DNA of 32,632 nucleotides, from assembly GCA_902619615.1 (NCBI GenBank), contig CACNFD010000020.1, positions 1 through 32,632 of the forward strand, given 5' to 3'. The position numbers and the translations under genes were made by a program. This document shows positions 10,926 through 27,149 of the stretch, in pieces. Source of the stretch: an uncultured SAR116 cluster alpha proteobacterium (lineage in GTDB: Bacteria; Pseudomonadota; Alphaproteobacteria; Puniceispirillales; Marisalimonadaceae). The first letter of the stretch is position 1, and every line of letters starts with the position of its first letter. The notes beneath the pieces were generated by a model. That model did no database searches. It worked only from the letters and a program-made list of their open reading frames with translations, and was not told the DNA's origin.

Positions 10926-12023
10926 CTACTCTGCTGCGATTTTGCTATGTTTATTTATCTTTGGCATAACCTTCTCTGCCATTAATTTCATTGAATTTTT
11001 TGCTAAATCTACATCTGCCCAGTCATGACCTGCATAAAGTAGAGTTCCAAAATCTCCAACTTCTTCTCTAAACTCTAAAATTTTATCAGCAACTTCTTCT
11101 GCAGAGCCAAATAATATTAGTTTGTTACAAATATCTTCTAACTTTAAATCGCTGTCTGGCATTTCTTGATCTTCTTTAAACAAATTTGCTCTACCATGTT
11201 TAAGCATTTTTGTTAGTAATTGTTTGTAATAAAAGACATATGGACTTCCATTACCTAATGCATAATCACGGGCTTTAGTTCTGTCCTCACAAATAAATAT
11301 TGACTTAGCAACTCTCCAGTCTTTTGAATCAGCCTTATAGCTACCTTCTTCACATCCTTGTATATAGCTTGGCCAGTGAGTTTTAACCCATTTTGGGAGT
11401 AAGAAATTAGCAGAAATTGGTTTCCACCCTCTAGCTGCTGCTGCGATTAATCCTTTCGAATATGGCGCGACAACGGTGCAAACTATAGGTGGATATGGTT
11501 TCTGAAGAGGCTTTTGCATGATTCCTTGACCAATTTCAGTCATCTGAGTCCGTTCTGTAGAAACATTCCAGTATTTCCCTTCAATGTTGTATGGCGCTTC
11601 TCTTTTCCAGATTTCTAAAACCATATCTATACATTCTACAAACATTTCATTTCTATTTTTGTCTAAATTTCCAAAAACTTCAGCATCAGATGCAAGTCCT
11701 CCAGGGCTAATACCAAAATTGAATCTTCCATCTAACATATGATCTAACATAGCAATTTGGCCAGCAATTGCAGCTGGATGAGAATTTGGCATATTCACAG
11801 TACCTGTTCCAAGTCTAATATTTTTAGTTTCAGCTGCAAGTGATGCAATAAATAGGGCACTTGATGTTATGTTTTCTGCTGCGTCTGTTACATGCTCACC
11901 ACAATAAGCCTCTGAAAAACCTATCTTGTCAGCAAGTAAAAAAGCTTCTCTATCTTCTGATAATGTTTTTTTATAATCCTTGTCAATTGGATGAATAGGC
12001 ATAGTAAAAAAGCCAACTTCCAT
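10926..12023 (-). CDS. LLM-class (luciferase-like) flavin-dependent monooxygenase
   Basis: This 365-residue bacterial-luciferase-fold protein has LSEDREAFLLADKIGFSEAYCGEH, RLGTGTVNMPNSHP, DHMLDGRFNFGISPGG and a C-terminal GSAEEVADKILEF, all typical of the limonene-1,2-monooxygenase-like branch. Such enzymes take reduced FMN or FAD from a separate reductase; the flavin reductase gene at 19118 is the only candidate here. The start is set at the ATG at 12023, preceded by GGAG at good spacing, rather than the TTG or ATG 12-15 nt upstream. It leads a six-gene minus operon, and an ATCA-N7-TGAT dyad lies 80 nt upstream. RutA, which opens the uracil ring, is a functional precedent for this fold but not a close homologue. 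Confidence 0.85.
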   Translation of the reverse strand: MEVGFFTMPIHPIDKDYKKTLSEDREAFLLADKIGFSEAYCGEHVTDAAENITSSALFIASLAAETKNIRLGTGTVNMPNSHPAAIAGQIAMLDHMLDGRFNFGISPGGLASDAEVFGNLDKNRNEMFVECIDMVLEIWKREAPYNIEGKYWNVSTERTQMTEIGQGIMQKPLQKPYPPIVCTVVAPYSKGLIAAAARGWKPISANFLLPKWVKTHWPSYIQGCEEGSYKADSKDWRVAKSIFICEDRTKARDYALGNGSPYVFYYKQLLTKMLKHGRANLFKEDQEMPDSDLKLEDICNKLILFGSAEEVADKILEFREEVGDFGTLLYAGHDWADVDLAKNSMKLMAEKVMPKINKHSKIAAE

Positions 12024-12103
12024 TTTAATCTCCATCAAAATTAAGCATTTTATTTATATGATATAACTTCTAAAATATTAAATGATTATTTTTTATGATA
12101 TCT

Positions 12104-12118
12104 ATCAGAAAGTATGAT
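12104..12118. promoter_or_regulatory. Candidate LysR operator, site 1 (ATCA-N7-TGAT)
   Basis: ATCA at 12104-12107 and TGAT at 12115-12118 are separated by exactly 7 nt, in the divergent spacer between the LLM operon and the beta-hydroxyacid dehydrogenase operon. The inner edge is 80 nt from the LLM start at 12023 and 50 nt from the ATG at 12169. An overlapping TGATA-TC-TATCA arrangement begins at 12096, so the region contains three half-sites in a row. The same dyad occurs at 18054 and 19014. Confidence 0.6.
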
Positions 12119-12132
12119 TTAATTACTAAGCA

Positions 12133-12157
12133 TTAATAGTTAATAATAAACTATTAA
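12133..12157. repeat. Perfect 9-bp inverted repeat before the 12169 gene
   Basis: TTAATAGTT (12133-12141) and AACTATTAA (12149-12157) are perfect reverse complements with a 7-nt AT spacer. The right arm runs into the ribosome site (AAGGGGAG, 12156-12163) of the gene at 12169. It may be a protein-binding dyad or an mRNA hairpin that affects initiation. It is followed by coding sequence rather than a T run, so it is not a terminator. Confidence 0.6.
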
Positions 12158-12168
12158 GGGGAGAAATT

Positions 12169-13041
12169 ATGAAAACTATTGGTTCAATAGGATTGGGTGC
12201 AATGGGTGGTTCTTATGCAAAATTCCTAATTGAAGATAATTACACAGTTTATGGGGTTGACCCAAATACTCAAAATGCAGAAATATTTATATCTTTAGGC
12301 GGTATATTATTAACTAATATCAGTGAGTTATTAGATAAATCTAATATTATAATTCTTAGTCTGCCAACTATTCCTATTTTTAAAGAAGTAATTAATGAAA
12401 TAGAATTAAATGGAAGATCAAATGAGCCTAAAATCCTAATTGATATGAATACTATTTCATTGGACGACAAATTAGAAACAAAAAACAAGTTGGATAAACT
12501 TAATATTAACATGGTTGATGCGCCTGTGAGTGGGACAGGTGCACAGGCTAAAGTAAAAGACATAGTTGTTATGTCCAGTGGAGATAAAATTATTATTGAT
12601 GAATGTGAAGATATATTTAAATCCTTTTCAAAACAAAATATATATGTTGGTGAATTTGGTAATGGTATAAAATTTAAGATTTTAGCAAATTTACTAGTGA
12701 CTGTTCATAATACTGTAACTGCCGAAGCATTGCTTCTTGGTCAAAAGGCAGGACTTGAAGAAAAATTGATTTATGAAGTATTGAATGCAGGTGCGGCTAC
12801 TTCAGTTATGTTAGATAAGAGAATGCCACTTATGATTAATAAAAATTATGAACCGGCTACTGCTTCTATGAGAATATTTTTAAAAGATATTGATGTAATC
12901 ACAGACTATCTTAAATTAAATAATTTAAGTTCTCCAACTTTTGAAGCTGCTGCAAATTTATATAATCAATCTAAAGAAAACATTCCTATTACACATGACA
13001 CTGCTGCCATTTATGAACAATTAAAAATCAATAATGAATAA
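12169..13041 (+). CDS. NAD(P)-dependent beta-hydroxyacid dehydrogenase (3-hydroxyisobutyrate dehydrogenase family)
   Basis: This 290-residue protein has an N-terminal Rossmann domain (GLGAMGGS, from residue 8), the substrate-binding DAPVSGTGAQA near 117 and GNGIKFKILANLL near 165 with the catalytic lysine region, then the all-helical C-terminal domain. These enzymes oxidise 3-hydroxyacids such as 3-hydroxyisobutyrate or tartronate semialdehyde-type compounds. It leads a four-gene plus-strand unit with cupin, YciI-like and cyclase genes and is divergent from the LLM operon. The ribosome site AAGGGGAG is unusually strong, and an inverted repeat abuts it. The substrate is unknown; a late pathway step is likely. 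Confidence 0.85.
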   Translation: MKTIGSIGLGAMGGSYAKFLIEDNYTVYGVDPNTQNAEIFISLGGILLTNISELLDKSNIIILSLPTIPIFKEVINEIELNGRSNEPKILIDMNTISLDDKLETKNKLDKLNINMVDAPVSGTGAQAKVKDIVVMSSGDKIIIDECEDIFKSFSKQNIYVGEFGNGIKFKILANLLVTVHNTVTAEALLLGQKAGLEEKLIYEVLNAGAATSVMLDKRMPLMINKNYEPATASMRIFLKDIDVITDYLKLNNLSSPTFEAAANLYNQSKENIPITHDTAAIYEQLKINNE

Positions 13042-13050
13042 GGAGCATTT

Positions 13051-13608
13051 ATGAAAGAAAATCAAAAACTTCCAGAAATAAAAACACTTTCTAGAGAATA
13101 TATGAATAAAAGGATTGCTTTTTTCTCAGAGCAAAATGGATCTAAAATGGGTTTGCCAGATAGTAAATTACCTGAATGCACACGAGAATTAATAAATATA
13201 ATAGGTTTTGAGCCTCCAAAAGGAGATAGTAAACATGTTTCTCCTTTAGGAAATGATAATGCCCAAATGCCAGCAATTAATATTTCTGAAGGATTTAATC
13301 TTGGTTTTTGCAGGTGTAAACCAGGTAAAGGACCATTAATGCACAATCATGATACCAATGAGACATTCATGCCAATTACAGGCAAATGGAGATGTGAATG
13401 GAATGAGGGTGAAGACCATGATTACGCTGACCTAGGTCCTTGTGATGTAATCTCATTTCCTCCAGGTTGCTCTAGGCGTTTTATGAATGTTACTGAAGGT
13501 GAAGACGATACAGAGCATCTTTTATTAGTAGTTATAGCTGGAAATGCTCCAAAAGCGGAATTTACTGATTTAGCTTATGAAAGAATAAAAGAATTTGAAA
13601 ATTCTTAA
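13051..13608 (+). CDS. Cupin-domain protein
   Basis: This 185-residue protein has a single cupin barrel at about 75-165. The first cupin motif is present as PLMHNHDTNETFMPITGKW (two histidines and a glutamate) and the second as GPCDVISFPPGCSRRFMNV, in which the usual last metal histidine is replaced. The N-terminal 70 residues are not recognised. Single-domain cupins include dioxygenases, isomerases and ligand-binding proteins. It lies 9 nt after the dehydrogenase gene and before a YciI-like gene, so it is part of the catabolic unit. Whether it is an enzyme is uncertain. Confidence 0.75.
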   Translation: MKENQKLPEIKTLSREYMNKRIAFFSEQNGSKMGLPDSKLPECTRELINIIGFEPPKGDSKHVSPLGNDNAQMPAINISEGFNLGFCRCKPGKGPLMHNHDTNETFMPITGKWRCEWNEGEDHDYADLGPCDVISFPPGCSRRFMNVTEGEDDTEHLLLVVIAGNAPKAEFTDLAYERIKEFENS

Positions 13609-13627
13609 TAATTAAGGTCTTAATATT

Positions 13628-13915
13628 ATGATATGGGTAATTTTATGTAAGGATAAACCAAATTCATTAAACGAAAGAATGAAAGTTATTGATGAACACA
13701 GGGCTTATTTATCGACAAATCCTATAAAAACACTTATATCTGGCCCATTAACTGATAAAGAAGGCAATATGAATGGTTCTTTTTTCATGGTTGAGGCAGA
13801 CAACGAAGAAAAAATAAGAGTTTTTCAGCGAAATGACCCAATTTTTAATGCAAATATTTGGGATGAAATAATTATTTCACCATTTAACAAAAGGGTAGAT
13901 AACCTTTCCAAATAA
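13628..13915 (+). CDS. YciI-like small protein
   Basis: This 95-residue protein of the YCII/ferredoxin-like alpha-beta fold has an early VILCKDKPNSLNERM, an EHRAYL motif and GPLTDKEGNMNGSFFMVEAD, followed by the NDPIFNANIWDEIIISPF ending common in the family. YciI-like proteins occur as small enzymes, including dehydrochlorinases and muconolactone-isomerase-like proteins, and many sit in catabolic operons with unknown roles. It is 19 nt after the cupin gene and 17 nt before the cyclase gene. I infer an accessory step such as isomerisation or hydrolysis of an unstable intermediate; no direct evidence gives the reaction. Confidence 0.75.
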   Translation: MIWVILCKDKPNSLNERMKVIDEHRAYLSTNPIKTLISGPLTDKEGNMNGSFFMVEADNEEKIRVFQRNDPIFNANIWDEIIISPFNKRVDNLSK

Positions 13916-13932
13916 TAAAATGTGAGGTAAAA

Positions 13933-14706
13933 ATGTCTAGAAAGTTCTTGGATTTATCAGTAAGTTTAGAAGAGGGCATAAAATCAGATCCAGATTTTAT
14001 GTTGCCTAAAATAAACTACCATCATCATAAAGAAACAGCTGAAGAGATGATGAGCTTCTTTCCTGGTTTAAAAAAAACAGATTTACCAGGGGGTGAAGGC
14101 TGGGCAATGGAAACAATAACTGTTAGCACGCACAATGGCACACATATGGATGCCCCATATCATTACCATTCGACAATGAATAATGGTCAAAGAGCTATTA
14201 CAATCGATGAAGTACCACTAGAATGGTGTTTTAGTGATGGTGTTAAATTAGACCTAAGATCATATGAAGATGGATATGTTTTAACTAAAGGTGATTTACA
14301 AAAAGAAATAAAAAGAATTAATTATAATTTAAAACCTTTAGACATTGTCTTTATAAACACTTCAGCATGTGGACATTATGGAAAAGATGATTTTTTATCA
14401 AAAGGTTGCGGAATAAGCAAAGAAGCTACTATCTATTTGCTTGAACAAGGAGTGCGAGTTACTGGTACTGATGCATGGAGCTGGGATGCTCCGTTCTCTT
14501 ATACAGCTGAAAAATATAAACAAACAAAAGATCCTTCAATAATATGGGAAGGTCATAGAGCAGGGATGGTTCAAGGTTACTCTCACATCGAAAAATTAAA
14601 TAATTTAGATCAATTGCCAAATAATGGTTTTAAAGTTTCAGCCTTCCCATTTAAAATAAAAAATGGTTCAGCAGGATTTGTAAGAGTTGTAGCAATTTTT
14701 GAATAA
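13933..14706 (+). CDS. Cyclase-family metal hydrolase, isatin hydrolase/kynurenine formamidase-like
   Basis: This 257-residue protein of the PF04199 family has an intact metal motif HNGTHMDAPYH (H67, H71, D73, H77). Later blocks TGTDAWSWDAPF and EGHRAGMVQGYSHIEKLNNL resemble isatin hydrolase from marine alphaproteobacteria as I recall it. Such enzymes use Mn or Zn to hydrolyse a ring amide or formamide. Unlike the long paralogue at 8692, the metal ligands are all present, so the two are not duplicates. It is the last gene of the 12169 unit; its stop abuts the stop of the convergent membrane-protein gene with no gap. Isatin itself as substrate is possible but not shown. Confidence 0.85.
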   Translation: MSRKFLDLSVSLEEGIKSDPDFMLPKINYHHHKETAEEMMSFFPGLKKTDLPGGEGWAMETITVSTHNGTHMDAPYHYHSTMNNGQRAITIDEVPLEWCFSDGVKLDLRSYEDGYVLTKGDLQKEIKRINYNLKPLDIVFINTSACGHYGKDDFLSKGCGISKEATIYLLEQGVRVTGTDAWSWDAPFSYTAEKYKQTKDPSIIWEGHRAGMVQGYSHIEKLNNLDQLPNNGFKVSAFPFKIKNGSAGFVRVVAIFE

Positions 14707-14940
14707 TTACCTATAAATTAGATCAGTAAGTTTACTAGTAATTTTAATTGCTAATGGCCTTACGAACAAAATGGCTGGGAAAGCAATAAGGGAAGCATAG
14801 AACCAATTTTTTGGCCAGACATCAAAGAAAATTGATAAATCTGTTAAAGCTAAATAAGTTACAAGTGAACTTATAAACATTGTTATAAATATTCCAGAAA
14901 TAGCAGTAGAGATATAAAATTGAAACTTTTCTTTTTTCAT
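14707..14940 (-). CDS. Small DUF2798-like membrane protein
   Basis: This 77-residue protein has two hydrophobic segments, about 8-32 and 45-67, and ends with a basic tail. The second segment (FYASLIAFPAILFVRPLA) matches the pattern I know from DUF2798 proteins, which are small inner-membrane proteins of unknown function. The start has ribosome site AGGTC. It lies just downstream of the TRAP operon on the same strand but behind a strong hairpin terminator, so it either has its own promoter or depends on read-through. A role with the transporter is possible but unsupported. Confidence 0.65.
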   Translation of the reverse strand: MKKEKFQFYISTAISGIFITMFISSLVTYLALTDLSIFFDVWPKNWFYASLIAFPAILFVRPLAIKITSKLTDLIYR

Positions 14941-14951
14941 ATAAAGACCTT

Positions 14952-14982
14952 AAAAAAAAAGACGATCTAAAATTAGATCGTC
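14952..14982 (-). terminator. Intrinsic terminator after the TRAP operon
   Basis: GACGATCTA (14961-14969) pairs with TAGATCGTC (14974-14982) across a 4-nt loop, giving a 9-bp stem. On the minus strand the stem is followed at once by nine T residues (A run at 14952-14960). It lies 26 nt past the stop of dctP and should end the minus-strand TRAP transcript. On the plus strand a shorter T run follows after 7 nt, so weaker bidirectional action is possible. Confidence 0.9.
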
Positions 14983-15008
14983 TCTTAACATTTTTTAGTA
15001 TAAATTAT

Positions 15009-16109
15009 TTATCCGCCAATTTTATAACGCACAGGGAATTTATGGCCAGTCTTTTCCATTTCATCCATATATGCGTTCATAATAGCGGCACCATCCATAC
15101 CATAATCTTTGGTAATATCCTTAGCTCTTGAATTCGGCCAATCTTTAATTGTTTCTGCCCAAATTTTTTGCTCAGATACTGGTAAATAGGTTACAGCATC
15201 ATTGATACCTTTTTTCTTACCAAGTTTAACTAAATCAGTTAGACCTTTTTGATATCTCTGCTGACCATCTTTAACAGCAGCTTTTTCATAATTAACTGAC
15301 TCTTCCATTATAATTTTTACAATTTCAGGTGGTAACTTTTTCATGGTATCCATGTTAATGGTAGTAATAGTTTGTGCCATTGCACCAAATCCAATAACCT
15401 TCCAATATGGAGCTTGCTCATAGAATTTAAACCCTCCAGCATGTGCTGATGGGAAAATAATAACGCCTTTTGCAACTCCAGTAGCTAAGTCATTATACAT
15501 TGTAGGAAGTGTAGATGTAACTGGTATAGAGCCAAACAAAGAAACCCAAGGTAAATTTGGTCCTGCAGCAATAACTTTAACTCCTTTTAACTCACTAGCT
15601 TTTTGCCACTGCTTAACTGTACCAATTCCGTAATCATCAAATCCCTGCATAGCAAGAAACTTTTGATTATACTTATCTTCAAGCATTTTGGTTAGTTCAG
15701 GAAATTGTTTAAGAATTTTATGCTTTACTTCCCAATTAGTTACAAGATTTGTTGTTGTAAAAGGTACAAAATAATCAAAGTTCCATGGTAATAATTTTGC
15801 AGTTTCAAAACATACACAGTATGAACCAATATCTAACAAACCTTTTTCAACTGCTTCTAAAGTTTCATGAACTTTTGCAATCTTACCAGCGTAAGCTTCA
15901 ATAATTCTTACTTTATGGTTCGTTTCTGCAGCAACTCTTTTTTTAATATTTGGAACTAAAACTTTTTCCATATTTGTAACATATGCAGTTGGCTTTGATG
16001 GGTGACCAGATCCAACCCTTAGTGTAAAGGTATCTGCAAAAGAGACAGATGCCATTATACCAGAAGCTAAAATGCTTAATGGTATAGCTTTTTTTAAGTA
16101 CCTATTCAT
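15009..16109 (-). CDS. TRAP transporter substrate-binding protein (DctP family), divergent binding site
   Basis: This 366-residue periplasmic binding protein has an N-terminal signal peptide (basic MNRYLKK, hydrophobic core, likely cleavage after ASVSFA). The start is the ATG at 16109, which has GGAGG 5 nt before it; the ATG at 16121 overlaps that site. Mature sequence follows DctP layout (LRVGSGHPSKPTAY, LDIGSY). In most DctP proteins LKGLKIR supplies an arginine that grips the substrate carboxylate and a later GQENP supplies an asparagine; here these read LKGVKVIAAGPN and GVIIFP. The ligand may therefore lack a conventional carboxylate or be bound differently. It is the last gene of the dctQ-dctM-dctP operon. 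Confidence 0.9.
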   Translation of the reverse strand: MNRYLKKAIPLSILASGIMASVSFADTFTLRVGSGHPSKPTAYVTNMEKVLVPNIKKRVAAETNHKVRIIEAYAGKIAKVHETLEAVEKGLLDIGSYCVCFETAKLLPWNFDYFVPFTTTNLVTNWEVKHKILKQFPELTKMLEDKYNQKFLAMQGFDDYGIGTVKQWQKASELKGVKVIAAGPNLPWVSLFGSIPVTSTLPTMYNDLATGVAKGVIIFPSAHAGGFKFYEQAPYWKVIGFGAMAQTITTINMDTMKKLPPEIVKIIMEESVNYEKAAVKDGQQRYQKGLTDLVKLGKKKGINDAVTYLPVSEQKIWAETIKDWPNSRAKDITKDYGMDGAAIMNAYMDEMEKTGHKFPVRYKIGG

Positions 16110-16159
16110 TATATCCTCCATAGGTAGTGTTAAGTTTAGTATTTAACCCCATGTTTTTA

Positions 16160-17476
16160 CTAAACAAATTGTGTTGGCCAGCTGGCTAATTCTGGAAAAA
16201 ATGCAACTAATAACATTACAATTAACATCATTATCCAATATGGAATGGATCCTTTAAAAATAGATCCTAATGATACATTATCTCCTCCAGCTGCTAAAAC
16301 TCCTTTAACTGTATAAACTATAAGACCAAAAGGTGGTGTAAGTAAACCAGCTTCAATTGCTAAAATCCCAAAAATTGCAAATGCGTAAGGGTTCATATCG
16401 CCAGCAAGTAATACAAATAATGGAACTGTTAGTAAAATTATTGAAATAGAATCCAATAACATGCCTAATATAAGCCAAATCACAACCATCATTACTAAAA
16501 TCATAAAGCTATTTAATCCGACGGAAGCCATTGCATCAACAATGACAGAGTCTATGTCTGATAAAGACAAAAATCTTGAATACATTCCTGCAGTAATTAA
16601 TAATATCATGATTGGAGCAGAAGTTTTGCCTGCATCAATAACTGATTCTACAATACCATTCCACCTCATGCCTTTAAATAAAGCAATACCAAAACTTGCA
16701 AGAGCGCCCATTCCAGCAGCTTCGGTAGGAGTGAATATGCCTCCCCAAATACCTCCCAAAACAACTACAATTAATCCCAGAATAGACATTCCAGATAAAA
16801 TTTGTTTATTAGTTAGTTTAGTAAGATCACCTATACTATCCGGTTCAGGAGCTAATTTTGGGTTAATTACAGCTTTTGAAAAATTATAAAACGCAAACAT
16901 AAGAGATAATATGATGCCTGGTATCACTCCAGCAACGAATAGTTTACCAATTGAGTCTTCAGTTATAATACCCCAAACAATTAATAATACGCTTGGAGGA
17001 ATTAACATTCCTAAACAAGCACTTCCAGCTATTGAGCCAACGGCTAATTTTTGATCATACCCAGCTTTTTTCATTTCAGGCCAAGCAATTCTTGAAAATG
17101 CTGCTGCAGAAGCAATTGAAGTTCCTGTAACTGCTGCAAAAGCAGCGTTGCCCGTTACAGTTGCTACACCAAGCCTGCCTGGAACCCCTTTAAGGCCCTT
17201 ATTTATTAAAGAGTATAAATCTCCAGCTGCACCACTCCTTGATAGAAAATCTCCCATTAATACAAAAAGTGGGATTGTCATAAAAATATGGTCTCTTATT
17301 AATTCATAAGCAGCACCGCCAACTTGGCTTGCAGCCATATACATATCTTCAAAGATAAAGTATGTGCCAATCATTGCTGTAGCACCTAAGGCAAGGGCAA
17401 TATGAACACCTGAAAAAATTGCTAAAAGCATTCCTACTAATGTTAAAATCATTAATATATCTAAATCAATTCCCAA
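16160..17476 (-). CDS. TRAP transporter large permease (DctM family)
   Basis: This 438-residue inner-membrane protein has about a dozen hydrophobic segments and typical family motifs such as GDFLSRSG, TGTSIASAAAFSRIAWPEMKKAGYD, GSACLGMLIPPSVLLIVWG and FTPTEAAGMGALASF. It is the sodium-coupled transport subunit that accepts substrate from the periplasmic DctP protein. The start is a TTG with AAGGAT upstream; no ATG fits better. It lies 22 nt after dctQ and before dctP. Length is normal for the family. Confidence 0.95.
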   Translation of the reverse strand: MGIDLDILMILTLVGMLLAIFSGVHIALALGATAMIGTYFIFEDMYMAASQVGGAAYELIRDHIFMTIPLFVLMGDFLSRSGAAGDLYSLINKGLKGVPGRLGVATVTGNAAFAAVTGTSIASAAAFSRIAWPEMKKAGYDQKLAVGSIAGSACLGMLIPPSVLLIVWGIITEDSIGKLFVAGVIPGIILSLMFAFYNFSKAVINPKLAPEPDSIGDLTKLTNKQILSGMSILGLIVVVLGGIWGGIFTPTEAAGMGALASFGIALFKGMRWNGIVESVIDAGKTSAPIMILLITAGMYSRFLSLSDIDSVIVDAMASVGLNSFMILVMMVVIWLILGMLLDSISIILLTVPLFVLLAGDMNPYAFAIFGILAIEAGLLTPPFGLIVYTVKGVLAAGGDNVSLGSIFKGSIPYWIMMLIVMLLVAFFPELASWPTQFV

Positions 17477-17498
17477 CTTATTATCCTTTTTTGCTAAT

Positions 17499-17972
17499 TT
17501 ACTTGTTTGACATAAATGATTTTATAATTAGAGATAAATAAATAAAAACTACAATAATTGATGAGAATATAATGACAGTTCTTATTGGATAAACTGGAAA
17601 TTCAATCGCTCCAATTCCTTGATATTCTCTAATTTCCCATCCTTTAATCATATCAGTCCATCCACCAACAGCTATACCAACAAACAGCATAATGCCAATG
17701 ATATAAGATATGATGTTGATTATCATTTTTCCTCTTTTTTTGAAGAAGTCATAAATTAAGGTTGTTCTCAGCATTGTTCCAGATGCTATTGCAAATGGAA
17801 CTTGAAGAAAAACTATAGCTGGTACAGAATTTTGTACAATTTGATCTGCGCCAAGAAAAATTCCAAGATTTCGGAATGTAACTTCTGCAAAAATTGTTAG
17901 TGCAACTAATATAAGCCAAATTGCAGCAATAGATTGTAGATATTCAGGGGTTTTCTTTATATGTTTTATCAC
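17499..17972 (-). CDS. TRAP transporter small permease (DctQ family)
   Basis: This 157-residue protein has four hydrophobic segments, starting at about residues 15, 48, 85 and 128, as in DctQ proteins, which form the scaffold of the TRAP membrane unit with DctM. The motif TFRNLGIFLGADQI at the end of helix 1 is family-like. The start is GTG with AAGGAA upstream. It is the first gene of the TRAP operon; the ATCA-N7-TGAT dyad at 18054-18068 is 81 nt upstream of the start, the same distance as for the LLM operon. Confidence 0.9.
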   Translation of the reverse strand: MIKHIKKTPEYLQSIAAIWLILVALTIFAEVTFRNLGIFLGADQIVQNSVPAIVFLQVPFAIASGTMLRTTLIYDFFKKRGKMIINIISYIIGIMLFVGIAVGGWTDMIKGWEIREYQGIGAIEFPVYPIRTVIIFSSIIVVFIYLSLIIKSFMSNK

Positions 17973-18053
17973 TTTATTTCCTTATATCCAGAATTATATT
18001 TCTACTTTACGATTACTTTATCTGTATTCAAATAATAAAATAGAATATTTAAA

Positions 18054-18068
18054 ATCATTTTATATGAT
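18054..18068. promoter_or_regulatory. Candidate LysR operator, site 2 (ATCA-N7-TGAT)
   Basis: ATCA (18054-18057) and TGAT (18065-18068) are separated by 7 nt; including flanks the arms are AAATCA and TGATTT, a perfect 6-bp dyad. It is 81 nt upstream of dctQ and just past the stop of the lysR gene. A weak terminator hairpin for lysR would be an alternative reading, but no clean T run follows on the minus strand. Confidence 0.6.
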
Positions 18069-18071
18069 TTA

Positions 18072-19001
18072 TTATAAAGGTCTAACTTTTTCATTCATTT
18101 TTTCTGTTATTGATCTAATTTCTTCACATATCTTTTTACTAAATAATTTTGCTGCAGAACTTAACTCTTTACTGGCAGATGTAATTAAAACATATTCTGT
18201 AATTAAATTTGGAGAAATAAGTGGAGATAATGTTCTTAAATTTCCAAGAATGTCTAAATCACATAACACGGCTGGTAATATGGCGCACCAATCACTAGAA
18301 GCGACCATTTCTAATGTGCCTATCATGCCATCCATTTCTAATGTTTTATCTATCTTAATATTATGAGTTGCAAAGTATTCATCCAATGTAATTCTTCTAG
18401 AATTTTCAATGCCAGGAAGAATTATTTTAATCTTTTCAAGTTTTGAAAGTTTTAATGGTTTCAGATGTTCGAAATCAGAATTTTTTTTAGTAACTAGAAA
18501 ATTCAAGTCGCTTGATACAAATTCAATTTTTAAGCCTGTAGGATTTTTTACAGAAGGTACTATGGCAAACTCAAGTTTATTAGTTCTTACCATATCTTCT
18601 AAAACTCCTGAATATGCCTCAGTTACTTTTACATCCACCTTTGGATATTCTTTAAGAAATTTTGAGAGTGTTGCAGGAAGAGCGGATCTAGTAAATGTTG
18701 GCATTAATCCACAATTGAAGGTTCCAGATAAGTCTTCAGAGTTAGTTTTAGCATCAATTAAAGCTTTATCCATTAAACTTAAAATTTCTAAAGCATATTT
18801 ATAAAAATTTTTTCCACTTTCAGTTAAGACCATTTTACCCGGAATTCTATTGATTAATTTTTTGCCAATACTTAATTCTAAATTTTGGACTAACATTGAC
18901 ATGCCAGATTGTGTAGCATTAAGCCGTGCTGCAGCTAAGCTAAAAGAATTTTCTTCAACTACTGCTACAAAAGCTTTTAATTGTTTAATTGATACAGACA
19001 T
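18072..19001 (-). CDS. LysR-family transcriptional regulator
   Basis: This 309-residue protein has an N-terminal winged helix-turn-helix at about 1-60 (MSVSIKQLKAFVAVVEENSF, ARLNATQSGMS) and a periplasmic-binding-protein-like effector domain at about 90-300. It lies between the TRAP operon (same strand, downstream) and the divergent flavin-reductase operon, the classic place for a LysR activator of a catabolic system. A LysR-type dyad lies 12 nt upstream of its own start codon, which suggests autoregulation. Matching dyads stand before the TRAP and LLM operons. The effector is presumably the substrate or an early intermediate; this is an inference. Confidence 0.9.
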   Translation of the reverse strand: MSVSIKQLKAFVAVVEENSFSLAAARLNATQSGMSMLVQNLELSIGKKLINRIPGKMVLTESGKNFYKYALEILSLMDKALIDAKTNSEDLSGTFNCGLMPTFTRSALPATLSKFLKEYPKVDVKVTEAYSGVLEDMVRTNKLEFAIVPSVKNPTGLKIEFVSSDLNFLVTKKNSDFEHLKPLKLSKLEKIKIILPGIENSRRITLDEYFATHNIKIDKTLEMDGMIGTLEMVASSDWCAILPAVLCDLDILGNLRTLSPLISPNLITEYVLITSASKELSSAAKLFSKKICEEIRSITEKMNEKVRPL

Positions 19002-19013
19002 AATTTAGTTACT

Positions 19014-19028
19014 ATCAGCTAAATTGAT
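19014..19028. promoter_or_regulatory. Candidate LysR operator, site 3 (ATCA-N7-TGAT)
   Basis: ATCA (19014-19017) and TGAT (19025-19028) are separated by 7 nt; with flanks, TATCA and TGATA make a perfect 5-bp dyad that also satisfies the ATC-N9-GAT form known from NodD and related regulators. It is 12 nt upstream of the lysR start and 89 nt upstream of the flavin-reductase start, so one bound site could repress lysR and activate the divergent operon. Confidence 0.65.
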
Positions 19029-19060
19029 ATAATTCATACAAATAAATAATTACATATAAT

Positions 19061-19074
19061 ACATATTAATATGT
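19061..19074. repeat. 14-bp perfect palindrome in the lysR/flavin-reductase spacer
   Basis: ACATATTAATATGT is its own reverse complement. It lies 43 nt upstream of the flavin-reductase start, between site 3 and the gene, where the second (activation) contact of a LysR tetramer would be expected. Its sequence does not match ATCA-N7-TGAT, and AT-only palindromes are common here, so the role is uncertain. Confidence 0.4.
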
Positions 19075-19117
19075 TAAAGAAAACATGTTTTAATTTAAAA
19101 GAAGAGAATTTGTAATA

Positions 19118-19585
19118 ATGAAAACCTTAGATTCAAAGTTTCTTAGAAAAACTCTAGGAAAATATTTAACAGGTGTTACTGTAGTTACTTCAACTGATAA
19201 TAATGGAAACCCTATCGGAATGACAGTAAACAGTTTTACCTCTGTATCACTTCATCCTGCATTAGTCCTATGGTGTATAGATAAAAAACAGCCAAGTTAT
19301 AATTCGTTTATTGATGCGGAGGGTTATGCTGTAAATATTTTGTCAAAAAATCAAAATGATCTTTGTTATAAATTTGCATCACAACTTGATGATAAATTTG
19401 AAAACGTTGATTGGGAAAAAAGCGAAAATGGATTTCCATTAGTAAAAAATAGTTTGGCTTGGCTTGATTGTAAAAAATGGAACTATTATTCTGGAGGAGA
19501 CCATCAAATTTTAGTTGGTGAAGTAACATCTTTTAATTCAACTGAATTAGAACCATTGACATACTGGAATGGTCAAATTTCTTAA
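19118..19585 (+). CDS. Flavin reductase (HpaC/RutF-like domain)
   Basis: This 155-residue single-domain flavin reductase has the family blocks LGKYLTGVTVVTS, GMTVNSFTSVSLHPALVLWCI, YAVNILSKNQ and a late GDHQILVGEV with the conserved GDH. It would use NAD(P)H to reduce FMN or FAD and hand the free reduced flavin to a partner monooxygenase. The only suitable partner in the window is the LLM protein at 10926-12023, which sits in another operon with the same predicted operator. It leads the long plus-strand operon that ends with the dehydratase. It is slightly short at the C-terminus compared with common homologues. Confidence 0.85.
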   Translation: MKTLDSKFLRKTLGKYLTGVTVVTSTDNNGNPIGMTVNSFTSVSLHPALVLWCIDKKQPSYNSFIDAEGYAVNILSKNQNDLCYKFASQLDDKFENVDWEKSENGFPLVKNSLAWLDCKKWNYYSGGDHQILVGEVTSFNSTELEPLTYWNGQIS

Positions 19586-19645
19586 TTGAAATATTCAAAA
19601 AAAATTATAGGATCAAATTACAATTTTCAAAATAATGAGGAATAA

Positions 19646-20953
19646 ATGGCAAAGTGGTTAAAAAATGGAAAGTCTGAGAAAGAAATTGTAGAAGCTGATG
19701 CAGAGGTTAGAAAAACAGTTGAAAAAATTCTACAAGACGTAGCTAAAAGAGGTGATGAAGCAGTTAGAGAGCTTTCAATTAAATTTGATAATTATTCACC
19801 TGATAATTTTATTTTAAGTAAAGAAGAAATAGAAACGGCAATAAGCAAAGTATCTAAAAGAGATATTGAAGATATTAAATTTGCACAAACTCAAGTAAGA
19901 AATTTTGCGCAAAAGCAACTTGAGTGTATTAAAGATTTAGAGGTAGAGACAATGCCAGGTGTAGTTTTGGGACATAAGAACATACCAATGAATGCAGTAG
20001 GTTGTTATGTTCCTGGAGGTAAATACCCAATGGTAGCTTCTGCACACATGTCAGTTTTAACAGCTAAAGTTGCAGGGGTAAAAGATATTATAGCTTCCGC
20101 ACCCCCGCAAGGTGGAGAGCCCCATCCTGCGATTGTGGCCGCTATGCATATGGGTGGAGCAGATAAGATATTATGTTTAGGTGGAATACAAGCAGTAGCC
20201 GCAATGGCAATCGGCACCGAAACCATAAACGGTGTAGATATGTTGGTTGGTCCGGGTAATATGTTTGTTGCCGAAGCAAAGCGTCAATTATTTGGTAGAG
20301 TTGGAATTGACTTGTTTGCTGGTCCCACAGAGACACTTATAATTGCTGATAAATCATCTGATCCAGAAATATGTGCAATTGATTTACTAGGTCAAGCAGA
20401 ACATGGACCTACTAGCCCAGCCATTTTGTTAACTGGTTCAGAAAAACTTGCTATTGAAACAATAAAAGAAGTTGAGAGACAGTTAGAAATTCTACCAACA
20501 GCTGGAATTGCTAAAGTTTCCTGGAAAGAATACGGTCAGGTTATTGTTTGTGATAATGTTGATGAAATGGTTAAAGTTGCAGACGATTTGGCATTTGAGC
20601 ATGTGCAAGTTATGACAGAAGATCCTGATTATTTTCACAAAAATATGACTAATTACGGAGCACTATTTTTAGGTTCAAGAACGAATGTTGCTTTTGGAGA
20701 CAAAGTTATAGGGACTAACCATACTTTACCAACTAAAACAGCTGCAAGATATACTGGTGGATTATGGGTTGGTAAATTTTTAAAAACTTGTACCTATCAA
20801 AAAGTTTTAACTGACGAGGCCTCAGCTCTTGTTGGAGAATATTGTTCAAGATTATGTGCACTTGAAGGTTTTTCCGGTCATGGTGAGCAGGCTAACGTTA
20901 GAGTAAGAAGGTATGGTGGAAGAAATATTGAGCCATATGCTGCTGCAGAATAG
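19646..20953 (+). CDS. Histidinol-dehydrogenase-family alcohol dehydrogenase, HpsN-like
   Basis: This 435-residue protein has the full HisD fold and catalytic set: Q and H in [15 protein letters not shown] in AFEHVQVM, D in [14 protein letters not shown] and H in [19 protein letters not shown]. The stretches [32 protein letters not shown] and [16 protein letters not shown] match sulfopropanediol 3-dehydrogenase (HpsN) as I recall it, rather than true HisD, and there are no his genes around. Such enzymes oxidise a primary alcohol through the aldehyde to the acid with two NAD. Followed by an SDR and an MDR gene, as in hps clusters, it may act on 2,3-dihydroxypropane-1-sulfonate or on another hydroxymethyl compound of this pathway. 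Confidence 0.8.
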
Positions 20954-20961
20954 GAGAAAAT

Positions 20962-21726
20962 ATGAATTATCCAAAATTACCAAGTTTCAGACTTGATGGT
21001 AAAAGAGCTTTAATTACTGGTGCTGGTCGTGGCATTGGAATGGGCGCCTCCATAGCTTTGGCAGAATCTGGAGCTGATGTTACTCTAGTTTCAAGAACTG
21101 AAACAGAATTAAAAGATTTAACAAAACATATTAATAACCAAGGTTATCAATCTTCTTATGAAGTGTTAGACGTTAGTGATGAAGATGAGGTGTCAAATTT
21201 TATAAATAATAATTCTCCCTTTGACATTCTAATCAATAATGCTGGTACTAACAGGCCTGCAAAGTTAATTGATACAAAAATTGAAGATTTCGTTTACGTT
21301 ATGTCTCTAAATGTCAGATCAGTTATTAATCTTACAAGATTAGTAGTTAAAAAAATGTTAGATACTAATATCAAAGGTTCAATAATTAATGTTTCATCTC
21401 AGATGGGACATGTAGGTGGTCCTAACAGAACCACATATTGCACAAGTAAGTTTGCTATTGAGGGATTTACAAAGTCTCTAGCCATTGAATTAGGCCCAGA
21501 GGGAATAAGAGTGAATACTATTTGTCCAACCTTCATACAAACTCCTATGACAGAACCTTTTTTAAAAGATGATGATTTTAAAAAAGCTACAATTGGAATG
21601 ATACCATTAGGAAGACTTGGAGAAGTAAAAGATCTAATGGGTCCATTTGTTTTTCTAGCATCTGATGCGTCTTCCTTAATGACTGGATCAAGTGTATTAG
21701 TAGATGGAGGTTGGACTGCAAGATAA
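20962..21726 (+). CDS. Short-chain dehydrogenase/reductase (SDR)
   Basis: This 254-residue classical SDR has TGAGRGIG at 19-26, NNAG near 94, the catalytic serine in SSQMG and YCTSK near 160, and the C-terminal GSSVLVDGGW. All catalytic residues are present. It is an NAD(P)-dependent alcohol or ketone oxidoreductase. It lies 8 nt after the HpsN-like gene (ribosome site AGGAG); in characterised hps clusters the neighbouring SDR is HpsO, a 2-dehydrogenase for the same diol, so that is one candidate role. Other diol or hydroxy-ketone substrates are equally possible. Confidence 0.9.
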   Translation: MNYPKLPSFRLDGKRALITGAGRGIGMGASIALAESGADVTLVSRTETELKDLTKHINNQGYQSSYEVLDVSDEDEVSNFINNNSPFDILINNAGTNRPAKLIDTKIEDFVYVMSLNVRSVINLTRLVVKKMLDTNIKGSIINVSSQMGHVGGPNRTTYCTSKFAIEGFTKSLAIELGPEGIRVNTICPTFIQTPMTEPFLKDDDFKKATIGMIPLGRLGEVKDLMGPFVFLASDASSLMTGSSVLVDGGWTAR

Positions 21727-21750
21727 ACAAAATTTAATAAGGTTTATTTT

Positions 21751-22755
21751 ATGATAGCAGTCACATTAAGTAATAATGGTGTAGAAATAAAAGATCTTCC
21801 TATTCCTGAAGTCAAACCTGATCAAGTTTTAGTAAAAGTTTATACATGTGGCCTAAACAGATCTGATTTATTGGAAACTCAAGGTCAATCATTCGGTCAC
21901 ACTGGTGGAGAACATAAAATTATTGGTGGAGAATTTGCTGGTAAGATCGTTGAATTAGGCAAATCTGTCAATAATTTTAATATTGGCGATAAAGTAATGT
22001 GTAGAGGAGGCTCTGGTTGGGCTGAATATGCTGTAGCTAATTTTAAAAGAATTATAAAATTTGATAATAATAAAATTTCATGGGAGCAGGGCGCTTCAAT
22101 TCAAGGCAGCCTTCAAACTATGCATGATGCTATTGTAACAAACGGAAAATTTGTTAAAGGACAAACAGTTTTTATTCAGGGTGCAACTAGTGGTGTAGGA
22201 TTAATTGGGATTCAAATAGCAAAATCTTTAGGAGCAAGTAAAGTTTTAGGCTCCTCAACAAACAAAAATAAATTAAATAAGTTAAGAAAATATGGCGCTA
22301 ATGTACTTATAAATACATCAAGTGACAATTGGCTTGATGATGTTTTAAAAGCAACAAAAGGCGAAGGAGTAGATATTTTAATTGATATGCTCTCAGGTAA
22401 TTATGTAAATAAAAATATGGAAGCAACTAAAATACATGGTCATATTGTAAATATTGGAAGACTTGCAGGTATGAGTGGAAATTTTAATTATGATCTTCAT
22501 GCTAAAAGAAGACTTCATTATGTTGGGACTACTGGTAGAACAAGGTCCCTTGAAGAAAATGAAATGGTAGCTACATTGGCAAATAATGATCTTTGGACGA
22601 GTGTTTTAGCAGGAAAAATTAGGCACGTTATTTATTCAAAAATACATTTAACAAAAGCAAAAGAAGCACTAGATATTATGAATAAAAACAGTCACTTCGG
22701 CAAAATAATTCTTTTTACAGATGAATTTACAAATAAGGATAATAAAGTTAATTAA
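21751..22755 (+). CDS. Zinc-free medium-chain dehydrogenase, quinone-oxidoreductase-like
   Basis: This 334-residue MDR protein has an N-terminal GroES-like domain (CGLNRSDLLETQG) and a Rossmann domain with GATSGVGLIGIQIAKSLGA. The cysteine and histidine zinc ligands of alcohol dehydrogenases are absent, which places it with the NADPH-dependent quinone oxidoreductase/zeta-crystallin and enoyl-reductase group. It probably reduces an activated double bond or quinone formed in the pathway. It lies 24 nt after the SDR and 18 nt before the 2Fe-2S gene in the same operon. The ribosome site is AAGG. Confidence 0.85.
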   Translation: MIAVTLSNNGVEIKDLPIPEVKPDQVLVKVYTCGLNRSDLLETQGQSFGHTGGEHKIIGGEFAGKIVELGKSVNNFNIGDKVMCRGGSGWAEYAVANFKRIIKFDNNKISWEQGASIQGSLQTMHDAIVTNGKFVKGQTVFIQGATSGVGLIGIQIAKSLGASKVLGSSTNKNKLNKLRKYGANVLINTSSDNWLDDVLKATKGEGVDILIDMLSGNYVNKNMEATKIHGHIVNIGRLAGMSGNFNYDLHAKRRLHYVGTTGRTRSLEENEMVATLANNDLWTSVLAGKIRHVIYSKIHLTKAKEALDIMNKNSHFGKIILFTDEFTNKDNKVN

Positions 22756-22773
22756 TTATGGATATAGAATTAT

Positions 22774-23238
22774 ATGAATTATCTTGATTGCAGCTTTAAA
22801 ATAAATGGTAATTTAAAAAAAATAACCATAATTGAAGATAAAACTCTAATTCATGTAATTAGAGATGAACTTGGTTTAACTGGGACAAAGCTTGGGTGTG
22901 GACTCGAGCAATGCGGAAGCTGTGCTATATTAATAGATGGAGAAAAAAAACTTTCGTGTAATTTATTGGCTAAAGATTATCAAAATTGTGAAATTACAAC
23001 TATTGAAGGACTAGAAAATAGCGATGGCTTAAATAATGTTCAAAAAGTTTTCAAAGAATTCAATGCAGCTCAATGTGGTTATTGCACAGGTGGAATTATA
23101 ATCAGTATTACAGCACTTTTAGATAAAATCAATAAACCATCGTCTCAAGAAATTCAACACGCTTTAGATGGCCATTTGTGCCGTTGTGGTTCTCATTCTG
23201 TTGTATTAAAGGCGATTGATAGTTTAATAAAAAATTAG
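22774..23238 (+). CDS. 2Fe-2S subunit of a two-subunit molybdenum hydroxylase (NicA/IorA-like)
   Basis: This 154-residue protein has the two cluster motifs of the family: GCGLEQCGSCAILIDG with a later SC, and QCGYCTGG plus HLCRCGSH. The pattern CGYCTGG and CRCGSH is that of the isoquinoline oxidoreductase/nicotinate hydroxylase small subunit rather than the CoxS type (compare CGFCSPG and CRCTGY at 4104). It is followed after 13 nt by its large subunit, with no FAD-subunit gene, as in nicAB and iorAB. The ribosome site is weak. It passes electrons from the molybdenum site to an unknown acceptor. Confidence 0.9.
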   Translation: MNYLDCSFKINGNLKKITIIEDKTLIHVIRDELGLTGTKLGCGLEQCGSCAILIDGEKKLSCNLLAKDYQNCEITTIEGLENSDGLNNVQKVFKEFNAAQCGYCTGGIIISITALLDKINKPSSQEIQHALDGHLCRCGSHSVVLKAIDSLIKN

Positions 23239-23251
23239 GGTATATAATATA

Positions 23252-25405
23252 ATGAAGCAATTTAATAGTGGCCCTAGTATTAATACTTACAACAAATTAA
23301 GTCATTGGTTTGATTTTAGTAATCCTGGAATTTTAAAAGTTTACTCTGGTAAAATTGATATAGGTCAGCATATTAGCTCTACACTGGCATTAATTACCTC
23401 TAAAATCACCGAAATTAAATATGATCAAATTGAAATTATTAAATTAAGTACTGATGTTTCACCGGATGAGGGTATTACTGCTAGCAGTTTATCTGTTGCA
23501 AATTCAGGATCTGCTATTAAGGCTGCTTCTATTGCTCTTAAAATAAATTTTTTAAATTATGCATTAGAAAATCTTCAAATTAAAAATGAAGATATACTTT
23601 TTGAAAATGGAGTTATTAAAGATAAGAATTCTAACAAGACTGTTTCTTATTGGGACTTTGCTAAAACTCATAAATTCAAAGATGTTATTATTCCTGAAAT
23701 TTTTGATGAGAACTCTCTTAAAAAAATTAATTATCAAAATAATCAAAAAATAGAATTAAAAACTATCAATGAAATCGTTACAGGAAAATATAAATATGTG
23801 CATGATTTAAATTTTCCTAGAATGTTACATGCCAGGATAGTAAGGCCTCCTTCCTATCACTGCAAATTAATCAAAATAAATGAAGATTTTAAAAAAAGGC
23901 TTTTTGAGAATGAGATTAAACTTTTTGTTAAAGGCTCTTTTGTTGCAATTCTGTCGCTAGATGAATTTTTAGTTATAAAATTTTTGGAAATTGCAAAAAA
24001 TAATATTTTTTGGGAAGAAAAGCATCAATTATCTAATGATAATGTATTTAATTCTCTTGAAAAACATGAAAAGGAAACTTTGTTAGTTAAATCTGGAGGA
24101 GAGGCTTTTTATGAAGAGATACCAGAAAAAAAATCTTTTGATGACCCAAAAATTAAATCATTATCAACAATTTTTAAAAAGAATTATTTAATGCATGGAC
24201 CTATAGGGCCATCTGCAAGTTGCGCTATTTATAATGAAAGTGAATTTACTGTTTTTTCTCATAGCCAATCAATTTTTGCTCTAAAATACTCCATTAGCAA
24301 GTATTTTGATGTTGATCCAAATCTTGTCACTTTGAAATTTATGCCTGGCTCAGGTTGCTATGGTCATAATGGAGCTGATGACGTGGCATTTGAAGCTTCT
24401 GTGATTGCAAAGTCATTTCCTGATCGACATATCTTATTAAAATGGACACGTGAAGATGAACATTCTTGGGAACCTTACGGAAGCGCATCTGTAAATAAAG
24501 TTTTTGGAGCTATTAATGATGATGGAGAAATTGTTTATTGGTCAAATGAGGCTTATTCGGATACATATTTGTCAAGACCATCAGATATAGAATTAAATAA
24601 TTTCACTAGTTATAAATTTTTAACTAATAATTTTGCAAAAATAAAATCAAAACCTAAAACGTCTGCTCATATGGGAATCCATAGAAATTTAGATCCAATA
24701 TATAATTTTAAAGAATGTAGATTAGTAAAAAACTTAGTTCATGATTTGCCATTGAGGACATCTGCATTGCGGACTTTAGGTGCTTTCGCTAATGTAACAG
24801 CGACTGAAAGTTTTTTAAATGATTTGGCATCAGTTAAAAATATAGATCCTTTTGATATTAGAATAAAACATTTAGATGATGAGCGTGCAATAAATGTTCT
24901 TAAAAACCTAAAAAAGAAAATGGAAATTTTTAAATCTAAAGAAGATAGCTTTAGAGGTATAGCTTTTTCAAGATATAAAAATTCTGCAGCATATTGCGCA
25001 GTTGGTATAGAATTAAATGTTAGTGATGACTTAGAAATTAAATTAAATCATGCTTGGATAACAGTAGATGCTGGAGAAATTGCTTATGAAGATGGTATAA
25101 AAGCACAGGTTGAAGGGGGATTTATTCAAGCTGCAAGTTGGACTTTATATGAAGAAGTGATTTTCGATACAAAAGAAATAATTTCTAAAGATTGGGATAG
25201 TTATAAAATTATAGGATTTGATAACATTCCTGTTTTTACTACAAGTGTAATTGATCAAAAAGGTTCTCCTTATTTAGGTGTGGGTGAAGTAGTGGCAGGG
25301 CCTACTGGAGCCGCTATTTCAAACGCATTGTGTAAGGCACTTGGACAAAGAATAAAAATATTGCCATTTACCAAGGATAATATTACCAAAGAATTATTAA
25401 ACTAA
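23252..25405 (+). CDS. Molybdenum hydroxylase large subunit, NicB/IorB-like, no cytochrome domain
   Basis: This 717-residue protein has the IorB-type order: an N-terminal molybdopterin-binding part (YSGKIDIGQHISSTLAL, normally GKVELGQG), an alpha/beta hammerhead near 160-210 (GKYKYVHDLNFPRMLHARIVRPPS), the block KWTREDEHSWEPYG near 405, RTSALRTLGAFANVTATES near 510, and LGVGEVVAGPTGAAI near 685 with the catalytic glutamate. Relatives hydroxylate N-heteroaromatic rings next to nitrogen, such as isoquinoline, nicotinate and quinaldine-type compounds. NicB proteins of pseudomonads carry C-terminal cytochrome c domains; none is present here. Divergence in the usually strict GQG motif makes a new substrate likely. 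The sequence stops at the normal end of the catalytic domain. Confidence 0.85.
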   Translation: MKQFNSGPSINTYNKLSHWFDFSNPGILKVYSGKIDIGQHISSTLALITSKITEIKYDQIEIIKLSTDVSPDEGITASSLSVANSGSAIKAASIALKINFLNYALENLQIKNEDILFENGVIKDKNSNKTVSYWDFAKTHKFKDVIIPEIFDENSLKKINYQNNQKIELKTINEIVTGKYKYVHDLNFPRMLHARIVRPPSYHCKLIKINEDFKKRLFENEIKLFVKGSFVAILSLDEFLVIKFLEIAKNNIFWEEKHQLSNDNVFNSLEKHEKETLLVKSGGEAFYEEIPEKKSFDDPKIKSLSTIFKKNYLMHGPIGPSASCAIYNESEFTVFSHSQSIFALKYSISKYFDVDPNLVTLKFMPGSGCYGHNGADDVAFEASVIAKSFPDRHILLKWTREDEHSWEPYGSASVNKVFGAINDDGEIVYWSNEAYSDTYLSRPSDIELNNFTSYKFLTNNFAKIKSKPKTSAHMGIHRNLDPIYNFKECRLVKNLVHDLPLRTSALRTLGAFANVTATESFLNDLASVKNIDPFDIRIKHLDDERAINVLKNLKKKMEIFKSKEDSFRGIAFSRYKNSAAYCAVGIELNVSDDLEIKLNHAWITVDAGEIAYEDGIKAQVEGGFIQAASWTLYEEVIFDTKEIISKDWDSYKIIGFDNIPVFTTSVIDQKGSPYLGVGEVVAGPTGAAISNALCKALGQRIKILPFTKDNITKELLN

Positions 25406-25448
25406 TTTATCTGTATATTAATCAAAAATTTATTAAGGATCTATTGAG

Positions 25449-27149
25449 ATGACCAAAAAAAAATCAGGCATGTATAAGAACCTAACAAACTATGGGGATA
25501 GTGAGTTTTCGATTTTTTTGAGAAAAGCCTTCATCAAAGGGATGGGTTATTCAGAAGAGATGCTTAAAAAGCCTATTATTGGAATAACTAACACTTACAG
25601 TGACTATAATCCGTGCCATGGAAATGTGCCTGATTTAATAAAAAGTGTGAAGGCTGGGATATTTTCTTCAGGTGCTATTCCACTAGAGTTTCCTACAATA
25701 AGTATTCATGAATCTTTTGCTTATCCAACTTCTATGTATCTAAGAAACTTGATGTCAATTGATACAGAAGAAATGATGAAAGCCCAACCAATGGATGCAT
25801 GTGTTTTAATAGGTGGATGTGATAAAACTGTTCCTGCTCAATTAATGGGTGCGTTTAGTGCAAATATTCCTGCAATTCAACTAGTTACTGGACCTATGCT
25901 TACTGGCTCTCATAGAGGAGAGAGAGTAGGGGCTTGTACTGATTGTAGAGGATATTGGGCAAAATTCAGAGCAGAAGAAATAGATCACGCTGAGATTAAT
26001 GAAGTTAATAATCAGTTAGTACCGACTGTTGGAACATGTGGTGTGATGGGCACTGCAAGCACAATGGCATTAATTACAGAATCTCTTGGAATGATGATAT
26101 CAAATGGTGCATCAGCACCAGCCGTTTCTGCTGAAAGAAGAAGAATTGCAGAGGAAACTGGTAAAGTGGCTGTTAAAATAGCTAATAAATCATTTAACCC
26201 AAAAAGTTTCTTAACTTTAAAAAATTTCAAAAATGCATTGACTGTTTTGTCTGCAATTGGTGGATCAACTAATGGGATTGTTCATTTGACAGCTATGGCT
26301 GGTAGACTTGGGATAAATATTGACCTTAACGAATTTGATAAAATGACAAAAGACACACCCATGATTGTTGACTTAAAGCCATCTGGTTCTGGTTATATGG
26401 AAGATTTGTTTAAATCAGGAGGGCTTCCCAGAATTTTAAATGAATTAAAAGATTACCTTTATTTGGATGCTATTACAGTCACTGGAGAAACTATTCGAGA
26501 AATTATTGACAAAAACAACTATAATTGGAAACAAGAAATAGTAAGAAATGCTGAAGATCCTATTTTTGACAAGGGAAGTATTGCAGTATTGAAAGGAAAC
26601 CTTGCTCCAGGATCTGCAATAATCAAACAATCGGCAGCAAGTAAAGAGCTGTTAATTCATGAAGGTGTTGTTGAGGTATTTGAGAATCTTGAAGACTTAG
26701 CGAATAGAATTGATAGTGATGATTTAAATGTTACTAAAGACAGTATTCTTCTTCTTAAAAACATTGGTCCAATAGGTGCGCCAGGTATGCCTGAAGCTGG
26801 CTTAATACCTATTCCTAAAAAATTAGCCAAGCAAGGAGTTAAGGACATGGTAAGAATTTCTGATGGAAGAATGAGTGGCACTGCAGCAGGTACAATTATT
26901 TTACATGTTTGTCCTGAAGCTGCTGCTGGCGGTACTTTAGGCATTGTAAAGAGTGGCGATATCATTAAATTAGATGTTAAAAAAAGATTATTAGAACTTA
27001 AGTTATCTGATGAAGAAATTGCTTTAAGAAAAAAGAGTAAAAAAAGTAATAAGGAAATTAAAAGAAGAGGGTATGATAAAATATTTCATGAAAGTGTGCT
27101 TCAAGCAGATAAAGGAGCCGACTTTGATTTTTTAAGATCTATAAAATAA
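25449..27149 (+). CDS. IlvD/Edd-family dehydratase, sugar-acid type
   Basis: This 566-residue Fe-S dehydratase has cluster cysteines in YNPCHGN, GGCDKT and GTCGVMGTAST, and a C-terminal swivel domain with RMSGTAAGTIILHVCPEAAAGG. That last block and the overall length resemble pentonate/arabonate/xylonate dehydratases more than dihydroxyacid dehydratase of branched-chain synthesis. It removes water from a 2,3-dihydroxy acid to give a 2-oxo acid. It is the last gene of the plus operon, 43 nt after the molybdenum subunit, and converges on the next gene with a 4-nt gap. Following the HpsN-like alcohol-to-acid oxidation, a dihydroxy-acid substrate would make chemical sense. Confidence 0.9.
   Translation: MTKKKSGMYKNLTNYGDSEFSIFLRKAFIKGMGYSEEMLKKPIIGITNTYSDYNPCHGNVPDLIKSVKAGIFSSGAIPLEFPTISIHESFAYPTSMYLRNLMSIDTEEMMKAQPMDACVLIGGCDKTVPAQLMGAFSANIPAIQLVTGPMLTGSHRGERVGACTDCRGYWAKFRAEEIDHAEINEVNNQLVPTVGTCGVMGTASTMALITESLGMMISNGASAPAVSAERRRIAEETGKVAVKIANKSFNPKSFLTLKNFKNALTVLSAIGGSTNGIVHLTAMAGRLGINIDLNEFDKMTKDTPMIVDLKPSGSGYMEDLFKSGGLPRILNELKDYLYLDAITVTGETIREIIDKNNYNWKQEIVRNAEDPIFDKGSIAVLKGNLAPGSAIIKQSAASKELLIHEGVVEVFENLEDLANRIDSDDLNVTKDSILLLKNIGPIGAPGMPEAGLIPIPKKLAKQGVKDMVRISDGRMSGTAAGTIILHVCPEAAAGGTLGIVKSGDIIKLDVKKRLLELKLSDEEIALRKKSKKSNKEIKRRGYDKIFHESVLQADKGADFDFLRSIK

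Follow-up and report, generated by a model that had tools for sequence, protein, structure and literature searches.

The window analyzed here is a 32,632-nucleotide stretch of DNA from an uncultured alphaproteobacterium of the SAR116 group, a marine group represented in this analysis mostly by single-cell and metagenome assemblies. It contains the inverted repeat ATCA-N7-TGAT in three spacers around a lysR gene, and this raises the question of whether these dyads are operators through which one LysR protein controls the neighboring genes. The three positions given in the original prediction (operators 1–3 in Table 1) are correct, and the window holds no further exact copy. Also correct are the distances from the dyads to the predicted first codons: 80 nt for the LLM gene (ATG at 12023), 81 nt for dctQ (GTG at 17972), and 89 nt for the flavin-reductase gene (ATG at 19118). 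For LLM, the ATG is the likelier start; the list of open reading frames (ORFs) opens it at TTG 12038.

Table 1. Predicted operators, promoter elements, and genes of the LysR cluster in the window.
Feature	Position	Strand	Remarks
Operator 1, ATCAGCTAAATTGAT	19014–19028		lysR/flavin-reductase spacer; exact in 22/22 spacers including the window
Operator 2, ATCAGAAAGTATGAT	12104–12118		LLM/dehydrogenase spacer; exact in 16/16, 18/18 with L094 and L095
Operator 3, ATCATTTTATATGAT	18054–18068		between lysR stop and dctQ; exact in 9/22
Probable degenerate operator 4, ATCATAAAATATAAT	3169–3183		77 nt before coxM ATG 3261
Conserved AT-rich block, LLM side of operator 2	12080–12103	-	fixed spacing in 18/18
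Candidate flavin-reductase promoter, TTCATA-16-TATAAT	19033–19060	+	10/12 match; inside conserved block
lysR, presumed binder	18072–19001	-	Pfam HTH_1 and LysR_substrate above cut-offs
LLM (luciferase-like monooxygenase), predicted target	10926–12023	-	Pfam Bac_luciferase; ORF open from TTG 12038
Dehydrogenase, cupin, YCII, and cyclase genes	12169–14706	+	possible target, other side of operator 2
TRAP transporter dctQ, dctM, dctP, predicted target	15009–17972	-	DctQ and DctP by Pfam; DctM by position and ORF
Flavin reductase, HisD-like, SDR, oxidoreductase, molybdenum hydroxylase pair, IlvD-like; predicted target	19118–27149	+	

The content of the cluster (LLM, flavin reductase, molybdenum hydroxylases, cyclases, and a TRAP transporter) suggests that an organic acid or ring compound is imported and degraded oxidatively. 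Three smaller features accompany these genes. The dctP/cyclase spacer contains an ORF of 77 amino acids of the DUF2798 family (14710–14940, - strand), which falls under the 80-aa ORF cut. A second molybdenum hydroxylase pair, of small and large subunits, lies at 22774–25405 with no medium FAD subunit beside it, and a second DctP-family protein is encoded at 27154–28056 (- strand) with no adjoining permease genes; inspection by eye showed no clear signal peptide in it.

A LysR protein search yielded 22 loci, across which lysR is 66–95 per cent identical and gene order is mostly preserved; 15 carry the label SAR116, and the others are labelled alphaproteobacterial or proteobacterial. The original prediction had proposed footprinting the three spacers in related genomes, and in the resulting alignments the exact dyad is present in 22 of 22 lysR/flavin-reductase spacers, 18 of 18 LLM/dehydrogenase spacers, and 9 of 22 dctQ spacers. 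(The first set leaves out L037, in which lysR is cut off; the dctQ set leaves out L019; and the LLM set leaves out L019, L023, L026, L027, L028, L030, and L033, in which LLM or the dehydrogenase lies outside the locus.) In the spacers of operators 1 and 2, identity to the window drops to 41–42 per cent outside the dyad, and even the N7 core bases vary among relatives while both half-sites stay exact. None of the eight half-site columns varies in either alignment; over the full alignments, the invariant columns number 31 of 116 and 33 of 130 (hypergeometric 1.2e-5 and 8.5e-6, respectively, with phylogeny ignored). When 2816 dyads (4-mer half-sites with gaps of 2–12) were tested, ATCA-N7 ranked first in each of the three spacer sets, tied in the dctQ set with a reading of that site shifted by one base. 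Three control spacers from the same loci contain the dyad in 0 of 16, 0 of 21, and 0 of 19 cases, the last two being short (42–85 nt). Because the relatives keep the letters of the motif while the surrounding DNA changes, the dyads are very probably docking sites of the regulator encoded among them. As a separate observation, three of the loci (L025, L034, and L035) have ~3 kb of extra DNA separating dctP from the second cyclase gene, relative to the window.

The product of lysR scores 61.7 bits against HTH_1 (cut-off 26.6) and 86.2 bits against LysR_substrate (cut-off 28), and no named NCBIfam equivalog reaches its cut-off among the matches listed (25 of 54). A stretch, NATQSGMSMLVQNLE, which we take to be the recognition helix, is identical in 22 of 22 LysR proteins of the window's family. 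Both domains are common to regulators of the BenM, CatM, CbnR, and OxyR type, as is a T-N11-A dyad beside a divergent regulator gene, and the solved sequence relatives of the window's LysR include OxyR-type, BenM, and CatM chains. In passages of two articles (PMC5002191, PMC11739112), T-N11-A is given as the form of LysR-type sites; all three sites of the window carry T as their second and A as their fourteenth base, and in 22 of 22 cases the dyad lies in the regulator's own divergent spacer. The window's system differs from those of the BenM, CatM, CbnR, and OxyR type in its half-sites, ATCA and TGAT, and in that operator 1 seems to lie nearer the promoter than -65.

Judging from these sequence comparisons, we consider it likely that the dyads serve as operators for the LysR encoded in the cluster, which would activate the catabolic and TRAP operons and probably curb lysR. 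ATCA-N7-TGAT would form the recognition part of the operator, and LysR would sit on the lysR/flavin-reductase and LLM/dehydrogenase spacers and, in a subclade, also before dctQ; it probably also occupies the site upstream of coxM. We infer that LysR loaded with an inducer, for which our guess is a substrate or intermediate of the oxidative catabolic cluster, would activate the operons through an AT-rich promoter block at a fixed spacing downstream. LysR probably represses lysR, because operator 1 is only 3–14 nt ahead of the lysR start in the 22 spacers. An AT-rich block does stand at fixed spacing on the flavin-reductase side of operator 1 (22 of 22) and on the LLM side of operator 2 (18 of 18), and these blocks point to transcription. 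The candidate flavin-reductase promoter in the first block is the best of six promoter matches in the region, but shuffled sequence gives an expectation of 8.0. With this match as the promoter, operator 1 would be centered near -46 and not near -65; according to a passage of PMC11602165, LysR recognition sites often lie near -65, with activation sites at about -35 and -10.

The proposal that one dyad is shared by three spacers holds for all of them in the window, but the dctQ copy is far less conserved in relatives. It is one mismatch off at the aligned place in four loci (L023, L025, L027, and L028) and was not found at that place in the remaining nine; the dctQ spacers of L029, L031, and L032 have a one-mismatch match elsewhere, at the lysR end. 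The copy is either a gain of a subclade or has decayed elsewhere. It is conceivable, though somewhat unlikely, that it arose by chance or is decaying and that the TRAP genes are transcribed together with lysR: the exact dyad is found in only 9 of 22 spacers, lysR and dctQ are co-directional and 65–108 nt apart, and 17950–19150 has no terminator-like site. However, those nine sequences, which include the more distant L036, keep the dyad with a variable N7, the four one-mismatch spacers have it at the aligned place, and a block downstream of it is conserved.

The original prediction of one regulon with three sites also missed a probable fourth site, before coxM. Of 14 coxM spacers, six have the exact dyad there and five, including the window's, have it with one mismatch; in the other three, neither form was found. 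(The set leaves out L120, whose contig starts inside coxM, and L121–L123, which are without coxM.) The coxM site is weaker evidence, because its dyad ranks only sixth in that set. With it, up to four operons are tied into one predicted pathway.

The presence of the dyads can be compared with that of the regulator, since lysR is found in 23 of the 58 genomes of the window's family. Three genomes (G030, G038, and G043) keep LLM (81–82 per cent), flavin reductase, and HisD; they have no lysR match and, in this region, no dctQMP or dehydrogenase. Their divergent LLM/flavin-reductase spacer has no place within two mismatches of the dyad, an absence that is probably one event because two of the three genomes share one spacer sequence. 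In two other genomes, G008 and G014, the LLM and coxM dyads are retained but lysR was not found in the assembly; this would fit dyads that belong to another regulator encoded elsewhere and lysR being merely one of its targets. We regard that explanation as improbable: the G008 and G014 assemblies are incomplete (79 and 60 per cent complete), the dyad adjoins lysR in 22 of 22 spacers and is missing together with lysR in G030, G038, and G043, it conforms to T-N11-A, as LysR sites do, and the window's own genome has just 2 further intergenic copies among 84. In G014, another dehydrogenase-like gene (L095, 1–1020) lies ahead of dctQ, at the place of lysR in relatives, so the lysR of this genome has been moved, is missing from the assembly, or was lost.

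The number of dyads carries less weight than had been proposed. About one chance match per window had been expected, and that estimate stood: shuffled windows have a mean of 1.53 exact dyads, and the whole genome has 87 in 2,156,702 bases, or 1.3 per window length. We rejected the use of the triple count as evidence. At least three copies occur in 22 of 100 shuffles, and the Poisson value from genome density is 0.15; three copies are not significant by number, because both place them within chance. Placement is unusual. The genome scan and intergenic tally that had been suggested as a check found 3 of 3 copies in the window to be intergenic (outside ORFs and RNA genes), compared with 2 of 84 elsewhere (L208 and L149 overlap and are one site, thus the total of 84). 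Of the genomic copies, 46 are flanked on each side by A or T (a criterion picked after the three sites had been seen) and 41 are not. We rejected a regulon extending past the cluster. Outside ORFs of 120 aa fall 4 of the 84 (L132, L148, L154, and L192): the L132 copy is inside the RNase P RNA, the L148 copy is inside a 110-aa ORF, and the L154 copy precedes an ABC substrate-binding gene that is present in 1 of 19 lysR-bearing relatives. That all three dyads arose by chance in AT-rich DNA, as the shuffles and the Poisson value taken by themselves would allow, is refuted for operators 1 and 2 by their conservation and, given also the intergenic placement, is hardly credible as a whole.

No exact dyad was found in the upstream region of the amidohydrolase gene or within ~220 nt upstream of LLM paralogues (46–62 per cent identity), where the DNA is readable. 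In L096, L098, L104, and L106, a tRNA-Pro (tgg) gene lies within ~200 nt upstream of a 61 per cent identical LLM paralogue.

NodD nod-box sites have the form ATC-N9-GAT. The window's dyads have this spacing in common with them, only this form being compared, and differ in that their targets are catabolic and transport genes. A literature search on the NodD form found no paper. The one paper listed for SAR116 with LysR, LLM, and TRAP is an annotation of Ruegeria pomeroyi, and no SAR116 work is among the ten listed, of 500 matched, for SAR116 regulons. Neither listing includes anything on this operator, which may still be in print. The predicted switch would be of the ordinary LysR kind, with a place and targets that are new to us, and it yields a regulator, its operator, and a set of targets that can be tested for this cluster of catabolic and TRAP uptake genes.

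The reading of the dyads as LysR operators is supported by their conservation in relatives, by their absence in the lysR-lacking lineage, and by a sister family of the same order (L164–L170 and L216–L222), where lysR has diverged, its recognition stretch has changed, and the dyad next to it is a different one. There, a LysR of 35–39 per cent identity is encoded divergently from an LLM of 69–70 per cent identity, and cox homologues adjoin the two genes. Intergenic ATCA-N7-TGAT occurs in none of the seven larger sister-family loci; six of the seven have one GTAT-N11-ATAC each, in the lysR/LLM spacer, which is the sole copy in L216–L221. This second dyad is found in seven of eight sister-family genomes, L170 included, and is absent in L222; it is tied with TAAA-N10-TTTA, at 7/7 each. 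In a class-wide search, LysR at E 1e-50 or better was detected in 2 of 384 other genomes, and the dyad was not found in the loci of those two.

We tentatively suggest, as a possibility short of an even chance, that regulator and operators were rewired together between the two families: the recognition helix and the dyad would have changed while the LLM and coxMSL neighbors were kept, and ATCA-N7-TGAT would have spread to at most four promoters of a larger catabolic cluster and then vanished with the loss of lysR. If true, the natural rewiring of a LysR regulon could be traced here in uncultured bacteria of the ocean, and the kept, lost, and changed cases would form a natural series for studying LysR specificity. 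The recognition stretch reads ISQHIS in the sister family and MSMLVQ in the window's family; the full sister-family stretch, NATQSGISQHISAIE, is present in six of seven and ends in ISSIE in one.
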